Positions 43,828-47,558 of a stretch of 64,000 bases of DNA are shown here, piece by piece. Origin of the DNA: Propioniciclava flava (GTDB lineage Bacteria > Actinomycetota > Actinomycetes > Propionibacteriales > Propionibacteriaceae); assembly GCF_004126535.1 (NCBI RefSeq), contig NZ_PPCV01000008.1, positions 1 to 64,000 of the forward strand, in the 5' to 3' direction. Every line of letters begins with the position of its first letter. The first letter of the stretch is position 1. The notes under the pieces are model-generated. The model made no database searches, was not told where the DNA came from, and saw only the letters and a program-made list of their open reading frames with translations. The position numbers and the translations under genes were made by a program.

Positions 43828-43849
43828 TTACTACGACGCTCGGTAGTAA
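43828..43849. promoter_or_regulatory. Palindrome between the divergent radical SAM and VanY-like genes
   Basis: TTACTAC (43828-43834) and GTAGTAA (43843-43849) form a perfect 7+7 inverted repeat with an 8-bp centre. Each arm also contains a TAGTAA that could act as a -10 box in its outward direction. It looks like an operator covering both promoters; the regulator is unknown. Confidence 0.55.
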
Positions 43850-43873: not shown

Positions 43874-44599
43874 GTGAAACGGCGAGCATTCCTGGCGGCC
43901 GGGGGTGTGATGCTGCTCACGGGCTGTAGCAGCACCCTCCACCCCGCCAGCACCCCCGATGCGACGGCCACCGATCCCGTCGACAGCCCCTCCGATCCGC
44001 CCGCGTCCCCCACGCCCACCCCCGCAGCGCCACCCCCCGACGAACGCACCGGGGACGGCCTCGACACGCCGTACGCCGTGGACGGGATCGTCGTCGTCAG
44101 CCCCGCCCACCGAGTCTCCGCGGCCTACGTACCTCCCTGGGCGCAGCGCCCCGACGGCATCCATCCGGACGCGGCAGCCGGCTTCGCCGCGTTGGTTGCT
44201 GCCGCCCAGGCGGACGGGCTCGCGCTCAGTCTCCGCTCCGGCTATCGCACCTACGCCGACCAGCGGGCCAGCTTCGAGCGGGCACTGCGCACCTACCCCG
44301 AGGAGACCGCGCGACGTTACTACGCCGAACCGGGTGCCTCCGAACACCAAACAGGGCTGGCGCTCGACGCCTGGGACGGCACCAATCGGGGCTCCGCCTT
44401 CGCTCAAACACCCCAAGCAGCGTGGCTGGCCACGCACGCCACGACGCACGGCTTCATCGTCCGCTATCCCCTCGGCAAGACCGCGATCACGGGCTACGCC
44501 TGGGAGTCCTGGCATCTGCGGTGGGTGGGCACCGAGGTAAGCGCGGCGTTCACGTCCGACCCGTCGTTGACGTTGGAAGAGTTCCTCGGGTTAGCCTGA
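43874..44599 (+). CDS. VanY-type D,D-carboxypeptidase lipoprotein (M15)
   Basis: The 241-residue protein starts at GTG 43874 with MKRRAFLAAGGVMLLTGC, a signal peptide with lipobox and a KRR start reminiscent of Tat signals. A Pro/Ser linker (25-60) follows. The peptidase domain has LRSGYRTYADQ, the zinc motif SEHQTGLALD and ESWHLRWVG. It trims terminal D-alanine from peptidoglycan stems at the cell surface. Confidence 0.88.
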   Translation: MKRRAFLAAGGVMLLTGCSSTLHPASTPDATATDPVDSPSDPPASPTPTPAAPPPDERTGDGLDTPYAVDGIVVVSPAHRVSAAYVPPWAQRPDGIHPDAAAGFAALVAAAQADGLALSLRSGYRTYADQRASFERALRTYPEETARRYYAEPGASEHQTGLALDAWDGTNRGSAFAQTPQAAWLATHATTHGFIVRYPLGKTAITGYAWESWHLRWVGTEVSAAFTSDPSLTLEEFLGLA

Positions 44600-44602
44600 G
44601 GC

Positions 44603-45535
44603 ATGGACGTCGACCGCCTCCTCAGCGACACCTCCCAGCGTCTTCGCGCCCGCAACGAACGCATGACGCCCGTGCGGCGGGCGGTGGTGCTGTGCCTGGC
44701 CGAGAGCGCTGAACCGCTCCCGCTGTCCGTCATCGTCGCCGACGCGACCGCCGCAGATCCGGGGCTGTCAGCCGAGGGGGTCGCGCATGCCGTGTCCATG
44801 TTCGTCGACATGGGGATCGTGAGCCGCCACGGCGACGGCGACGCCGCCCAGTACACCCTTCACCCGGCCGCCTGCGCCGGGGCCGGGAGCCCGCAGCAGC
44901 TACTCGACGTCCCCCTGGTGACGATCTTCGAGGAGTACGGGGCCGGCGCGGAGGCCATCGGCCAGCAGGTCGCAGACCGCCTCGGTATCCCGTTCATCGG
45001 CCAGTCGATCAGTTCGGAGACGTTCGAGGCGGCTGCTCAGCGCGATGCCGTGGAGGCGAACTTCTTCGAACGGTTCCTTCGTTCGTTCACCCCGATGCCG
45101 ACCGATGCCGACCTGGTGTGGGATCTGGCCTCCCGAACCGATCACGAGATCGTCACCGAGAACACCGAGTCGCTGCTGTGGCTGGCCGCCGAGGGTGCCG
45201 TCATCGTCGGGCGCAACGCCACGAAGATCCTGCAGCGCGAGCCGCAGGCCCTGCACGTGAAACTCACCGGTCCGGTGGAGTCGCGGGTCGCCTACGCGTC
45301 CGCCACCACAGGGATCTCGCTGGAGCAGGCCCGCCGACGCCAGGAGCGCGAGGATCGCGTCCGCGCGGATCTGGCACGGCGCCTGTACCGCTGGGATCCC
45401 ACGCAATCAGGGCTGTTCGACCTCACCGTCAACACAGCCTCCTTCACCGACGCCCACGCCGCCGACCTGATCGTGGCCGCCTTCCGCAACGCCGTCGAGG
45501 ATTTCCCCCACGCGCCAAGGACCCCGCAGGCCTGA
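44603..45535 (+). CDS. Fur-like winged helix fused to a cytidylate-kinase-like domain
   Basis: The 310-residue protein has two parts. Residues 8-93 follow the DNA-binding half of Fur regulators: LRARNERMTPVRRAVVLCLAE, then a segment VAHAVSMFVDMGIVSRHGDG, but without the metal-binding dimerisation half. Residues about 100-300 follow the Cytidylate_kin2 family: VTIFEEYGAGAEAIGQQVAD, LGIPFIGQSIS, GRNATKILQ and QEREDRVRADLARRLYRWD. The P-loop lacks the classic GK, as in that family. It may be a nucleotide-responsive regulator. ATG 44603 lies 3 bp after the VanY-like stop. Confidence 0.78.
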   Translation: MDVDRLLSDTSQRLRARNERMTPVRRAVVLCLAESAEPLPLSVIVADATAADPGLSAEGVAHAVSMFVDMGIVSRHGDGDAAQYTLHPAACAGAGSPQQLLDVPLVTIFEEYGAGAEAIGQQVADRLGIPFIGQSISSETFEAAAQRDAVEANFFERFLRSFTPMPTDADLVWDLASRTDHEIVTENTESLLWLAAEGAVIVGRNATKILQREPQALHVKLTGPVESRVAYASATTGISLEQARRRQEREDRVRADLARRLYRWDPTQSGLFDLTVNTASFTDAHAADLIVAAFRNAVEDFPHAPRTPQA

Positions 45536-46765: not shown

Positions 46766-46892
46766 GGGAAATCCACCTTTCCGTTTGACCCAGACTATCG
46801 GCCACCTCCACCGTGACCCCAGCAGTAACCACGCGCAAGGGGTGAGCGGGCTAGTGTGGACCGAGCCAGCCCCCGTTCACAGCAAGGACGCC

Positions 46893-47558
46893 ATGGACCG
46901 CCCACCGACCTCGAACGTCTCGGTCGACGCCTTGACCCTGCGCTTCAACCCCGCGACGCGCGACGTCGAGTTCGCCGTCGTCCGTCGCGTGACGCAGCCC
47001 TATGCCGGACGCCTCGCCCTCCCCGGCGTGACGCTGTGGGAAGGCGAACGCCTCGCCGACGCCGCGGTGCGCGCCGTCACACGCAAGCTGGGGTTGTCGT
47101 TGCGCGATCAAGGCCAGCTCACCGTGTTCGACGAACCGGCGCGCGACCCGCGCGGGGCGACCCTGTCGGCGCTGCTGTGGGCCGTCGCCGAGGACGGTGA
47201 CGCCACCCCCGGCGTCGAGTGGCACTCCTTCGACGATGTGCCCCCGCTCGCGTTCGACCACAATCAGATGATCACCGTTGGCCGCCCCCTGCTGGTGGAC
47301 CGACTGTGGCGCAATGAGGCGTTCACGCGTGCCCTCACCGGCCCGGCGTTCCCGGTGTCGACGGCCGTCGCGATCACCCAGTCCCTCGTCGGGTCGGCGC
47401 CCGACCGCGGGAATCTCAACCGCCGCCTTGCCGCGATCACCGGTTTGCGGGTCAGCGATCGCAAAGTCGTGCTCGGGCGCGGACGCCCCGGTTCGCTGTG
47501 GGAATGGCACGACGCCCTCCCCACACCCGGCACGCCTTCACTACCCTCCCAGGAGTGA
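46893..47558 (+). CDS. NrtR-like Nudix-domain transcriptional regulator
   Basis: The 221-residue protein has a Nudix-fold N-terminus (about 8-135; ALTLRFNPATRDVEFAVVRR, then GRLALPGVTLWEGERLADAA). The Nudix box is degenerate: RAVTRKLGL stands where catalytic REUxEExGU is expected, so it should bind but not cleave its ligand. The C-terminus (about 145-215) is a winged helix ending GRGRPGSLWEW, as in NrtR regulators of NAD metabolism, which sense ADP-ribose. ATG 46893 is used. Its target genes are not evident here. Confidence 0.78.
   Translation: MDRPPTSNVSVDALTLRFNPATRDVEFAVVRRVTQPYAGRLALPGVTLWEGERLADAAVRAVTRKLGLSLRDQGQLTVFDEPARDPRGATLSALLWAVAEDGDATPGVEWHSFDDVPPLAFDHNQMITVGRPLLVDRLWRNEAFTRALTGPAFPVSTAVAITQSLVGSAPDRGNLNRRLAAITGLRVSDRKVVLGRGRPGSLWEWHDALPTPGTPSLPSQE

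Follow-up and report, generated by a model that had tools for sequence, protein, structure and literature searches.

The gene at positions 44603–45535 (plus strand) of the window, the 64,000-nucleotide stretch of the Propioniciclava flava genome that we analysed, encodes a 310-residue protein (P0001) in which a winged helix derived from a Fur-type metal regulator is joined to a Cytidylate_kin2-like (PF13189) domain. This fusion is real, recent and narrowly distributed, and its origin is well supported. The winged helix occupies residues 1–87 (44603–44863) and is followed by a linker for which model confidence is partly low (residues 88–103; 44864–44911) and by the kinase-like domain (residues 104–299; 44912–45499), which matches PF13189 over residues 106–279 at 96.6 bits against a curated cut-off of 28. 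On the N-terminal half the Pfam FUR model (PF01475) remains sub-threshold (12.6 bits, cut-off 23.1), and phmmer matches this half to Magnetospirillum Fur (4ray/4raz, E about 4e-7). The C-terminal metal-binding and dimerisation domain of Fur is absent, and the PF13189 domain stands in its place. An earlier note, made from the letters alone, had read residues 8–93 as a Fur winged helix with a Cytidylate_kin2-like domain substituted for the metal domain; phmmer, AlphaFold2 and Foldseek agree on the winged helix, with a border that lies closer to residues 87–103 than to 93, and the PF13189 score bears out the substitution.

The ATG of the fusion gene lies 3 bp after the stop codon (44597–44599) of vanY (43874–44599, plus strand), which encodes a VanY-type D-Ala-D-Ala carboxypeptidase; the short gap to a peptidoglycan carboxypeptidase gene was thus correctly noted, and the two genes are probably carried on one transcript. 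Divergent from them is a radical SAM/SPASM gene (TIGR04053; 42540–43889, minus strand), a conserved neighbour that anchors synteny at this locus. The product of this gene has a histidine- and glycine-rich N-terminus (HPGGHPGARGGHPGGHPGGHPH), similar in sister genomes, that possibly binds metal.

For structural analysis the Fur and kinase-like halves were aligned and folded separately, as a joint alignment placed Fur rows against the C-terminal half. The AlphaFold2 model of residues 1–96 has winged-helix topology at a pLDDT of 90, so the predicted N-terminal fold is the one that had been proposed from the sequence, and the best Foldseek matches to this model are Fur-family structures (4rb3/4rb1, E about 4e-6, TM 0.7). 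A confident winged helix is also seen in the full-length AlphaFold2 model, in which only two alignment rows cover the N-terminal half. With the full-length model as query, the PF13189 structures 3hdt and 3fdi rank first, and the next matches for the kinase-like fold are CMP kinases and shikimate kinase.

G006, another species of the genus whose genome is a single contig, carries an intact ORF for the same fusion (323 aa, 73% identity), and the order of the genes around it is unchanged. The fusion is therefore not an assembly error, and the ORF is confirmed as real. Searches of approximately 770 different genomes, in sets for genus, family, order and class that overlap, identified two carriers of the fusion in each of the first three sets (13 genomes for the genus, 199 for the family and a sample of 393 for the order) and one carrier, the window's own genome, in a sample of 395 for the class; no further genome among the roughly 770 carries it, and the count of genomes that the earlier note had called for is therefore two. 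A search of viral contigs revealed no relative, and a scan of GTDB contigs returned only a stand-alone kinase-like copy. That the gene is a pseudogene, or that it results from an error of annotation or assembly, might be argued from this narrow distribution and from weak constraint on its N-terminal half, but given that it is intact in G006, at the identity and in the gene order described above, and that dN/dS between the two fusion species is 0.16 (0.10–0.25) over the kinase-like half, we consider this explanation highly improbable.

Comparison with sister genomes indicates how the fusion arose. In G012 a full-length Fur-family gene, in which both the VYR and the CxxC motif are present, begins 10 bp after vanY and is followed by convergent CbiM/EcfT/EcfA genes. 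The order in G005 is radical SAM gene, vanY, Fur gene, ECF genes, 5'-nucleotidase gene and stand-alone kinase-like gene, with the Fur and kinase-like genes on the same strand and separated by about 6 kb, and in G002 it is radical SAM gene, vanY, 5'-nucleotidase gene and kinase-like gene. In a maximum-likelihood tree of kinase-like domains the two fused domains group together (100/98), and their clade is sister to exactly the stand-alone copies of G002 and G005 (100/99). The N-terminus of the fusion is homologous to the Fur genes of sister genomes (39% over 82 aa for the G006 half, E 9e-10); in a tree of the short N-terminal halves, which is too weak to place them further, the two fusions group on a long branch, consistent with rapid change once the genes had fused.

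The simplest account of the fusion, and one that is well supported by these gene orders and trees, is a deletion (or an equivalent rearrangement) between the Fur and kinase-like genes. The ancestor of the window's species and G006 would have carried vanY, a complete Fur-type metal regulator gene, ECF metal transporter genes, a 5'-nucleotidase gene and a stand-alone Cytidylate_kin2 gene, and the deletion would have removed the metal and dimerisation half of Fur together with what lay between the two genes, leaving the winged helix and the kinase-like protein in a single reading frame; the order of losses at the locus is one that we infer.

We then asked which features of Fur are retained in the winged helix. 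In Magnetospirillum Fur the residues that read DNA are Lys15, Tyr56 and Arg57, and a Y56A mutant binds DNA weakly whereas an R57A mutant does not bind (PMC4506495). By alignment the equivalents in the fusion are Arg20, a conservative change, Ala61 and His62. The recognition helix (residues 57–70; 44771–44812) thus reads VAH (V60-A61-H62) in both fusions, whereas each of the 11 intact Fur rows keeps VYR, which contains the base-reading Tyr-Arg of helix 4. The net charge of the helix is −2; among intact Furs it ranges from 0 to +2. Residues that contact the minor groove or the backbone are kept (K15 as Arg20, T17 as Thr22 and R20 as Arg25). The earlier note had made conservation of the recognition residues a point on which its reading would turn, and on this point it fares only half well: a winged helix is predicted, but the Tyr and Arg are replaced in both fusions. 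Because mutants at these positions of a characterised Fur bind DNA little or not at all, the case for DNA binding is weakened, and sequence-specific binding by the winged helix of the fusion appears doubtful.

Measures of constraint, which are wide since just two fusion sequences exist, give a dN/dS of 0.71 (0.40–1.28) for the winged-helix half, as compared with 0.16 for the kinase-like half and 0.37–0.60 for the same N-terminal half in intact sister Furs; the excess of the fusion over the latter is itself not significant. There are no indels in the winged helix between the two fusion species, the helix segment GLxAEGVAHA is almost unchanged, and protein identity is 0.58 as against 0.475 in a neutral simulation, under a simple mutation model, at equal DNA distance (P = 0.001). 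In the same simulation, retention of the hydrophobic positions was not above neutral (P = 0.40). The kinase-like half is strongly constrained and the winged-helix half weakly, yet the latter is not free of constraint or simply decaying.

One reading of these data is that the fusion is a one-component regulator of transcription whose DNA specificity is new: the changed recognition helix (EGVAHA) would bind DNA, and the kinase-like domain would take the place of the metal domain as dimeriser and ligand sensor. The confident winged-helix model, the retention of Arg20, Thr22 and Arg25 in the L1 loop, a recognition helix that is among the best-conserved N-terminal parts between the two fusion species, and a winged-helix identity above neutral expectation speak for this reading, as do the precedents of NrtR, NadR and BirA, in which an enzyme-like sensor is combined with a winged helix. 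A gene at 46827–47558 is also in keeping with it, being weakly similar to NrtR, an ADP-ribose-responsive repressor; the similarity of this Nudix-type protein is 29.9 bits, below the model's cut-off of 400, and the gene is a candidate for a second enzyme-like regulator near the fusion. The loss of the VYR Tyr and Arg with the net negative charge of the helix, the behaviour of R57A, the weak constraint on the winged helix and the outcome of the operator search described below count against it, and we judge a regulator of new specificity to be somewhat unlikely.

No operator specific to the fusion was seen near the gene. The divergent promoter between the radical SAM gene and vanY contains the dyad TACTACGACGCTCGGTAGTA (43829–43848), which can be written TACTACGAC-N5-GTAGTA, and the form TACTACGACnnnnnGTAG (core TACTACGAC-N5-GTAG) lies upstream of the radical SAM gene in eight genomes of the genus, some of them with neither Fur nor fusion. 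We therefore rejected this dyad, the only conserved one found, as the fusion's own operator. Across whole genomes its sites number 10, close to the 7 obtained with a reversed-pattern control, and a Nur-box-like pattern occurs in the window at chance level. The same core also precedes feoAB in G007 (L098), where an IdeR-like box lies next to it, and a pntA-like gene in G006 (L097); in both cases the gene names were read from sequence.

In the kinase-like half, alignment to the CMP kinase 3akc puts Ala116, within the P-loop-like stretch EEYGAGAEA (residues 110–118; 44930–44956), at the position of the Walker A lysine, and this position holds A, M, G, L or V in all of 42 aligned sequences and never Lys. 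Binding of CMP, CTP or ATP is therefore an assumption, and ordinary P-loop catalysis by this half is unlikely. Four residues (Gly113, Gly203, Arg254 and Asp273) do not vary, and Arg204, Arg228, Arg246, Asp251 and Asn277 hardly do; the Arg/Asp cluster of the LID-like stretch (45338–45364) is kept, with R246 in 39, D251 in 41 and R254 in all 42 rows. A phosphate-binding site may be retained. An active small-molecule kinase, acting on a nucleotide or another substrate and carrying an irrelevant N-terminal leader, would accord with the near-invariance of Asp251, Arg254, Arg204 and Asp273, with the CMP kinase and shikimate kinase folds that match after the PF13189 structures, and with related stand-alone copies that adjoin a 5'-nucleotidase gene on its downstream side. 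With no lysine at the Walker A place in any row, and with true CMP-kinase models scoring far below cut-off (18.2 bits against 102.1 for the NCBIfam equivalog TIGR02173), we think such an enzyme quite unlikely. In two genomes (L039, 3363–5946; L041, 7564–10166) the gene immediately after a 5'-nucleotidase gene is a stand-alone Cytidylate_kin2 gene, an adjacency that may hint at a nucleotide-related role.

The relatives of the domain hint at a function other than catalysis. In many genomes of the same bacterial family, MFS_2 sugar transporters bear a C-terminal Cytidylate_kin2 domain that forms their cytoplasmic tail, confirmed by Pfam in two (L006 and L027) and assigned by open frame and sequence, as MFS_2 (GPH-type) plus Cytidylate_kin2, in L012, L056, L058, L059, L060, L062, L063, L064 and L067; in the tree, whose root lies on a long outgroup branch, stand-alone as well as fused copies nest in a set that begins with these transporter-linked copies. 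The transporter LacS has a regulatory IIA tail, and the Cytidylate_kin2 domain is placed likewise. These relatives suggest that the PF13189 domain is a regulatory, ligand-binding module. Searches of the literature turned up no work on the function of PF13189 or of a fusion of this kind, and we found no known ligand for any PF13189 protein.

Taken together, the evidence for a one-component regulator with sequence-specific DNA binding is mixed. The proposal of the earlier note, that DNA binding is linked to nucleotide binding in a new type of one-component regulator, was right as to fold and domains, but VYR is lost and the Walker A lysine is lacking, and nucleotide sensing by the kinase-like half is unproven. 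The kinase-like domain is most likely today's working part, a module that would bind a phosphate-bearing ligand and regulate without ordinary P-loop catalysis. The winged helix would have been retained for its fold and because translation of the gene starts in it, its Fur-box reading lost, and may now be a relic or serve backbone or protein contacts. We put at about an even chance this picture of a young chimeric gene with a working kinase-like module and a winged helix that no longer reads the Fur box. That the Fur winged helix was instead re-aimed, the metal domain being swapped for a lysine-less kinase-like sensor to give a one-component regulator that does not depend on metal and responds to a nucleotide or a phosphorylated sugar, we hold to be unlikely; were it true, the immediate ancestors of such a regulator would remain readable in sister genomes.

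The fusion has been caught soon after it arose: its two parent genes still exist apart in sister species, so that whether a domain swap brings or costs DNA binding is open to direct test. The fusion shares its winged helix and L1 loop with the Fur-type regulators found beside ECF (CbiM-type) transporters in sister genomes, and descends from such a gene; relative to the Fur family, of which Magnetospirillum Fur (4rb1/4rb3) is by Foldseek the nearest solved structure to its winged helix, it lacks the metal and dimerisation domain, has VAH for VYR and carries a new C-terminal domain. With the PF13189 proteins 3hdt and 3fdi it shares the whole C-terminal domain, including the lysine-less P-loop-like stretch and the LID Asp and Arg residues, to which it adds the Fur-derived winged helix. 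The MFS_2 transporters bear an added module of the same domain clade, whose partner is a membrane transporter there and a winged helix here; that PF13189, a poorly known kinase-like domain, is attached to sugar transporters and in one case to a DNA-binding fold hints that its role is regulatory and not that of a kinase in metabolism. In NrtR, NadR and BirA an enzyme-like domain is likewise joined to a helix-turn-helix and senses its ligand; their domains are unrelated to those of the fusion, and their DNA binding and ligands are proven, whereas the fusion is known from its sequence and models.
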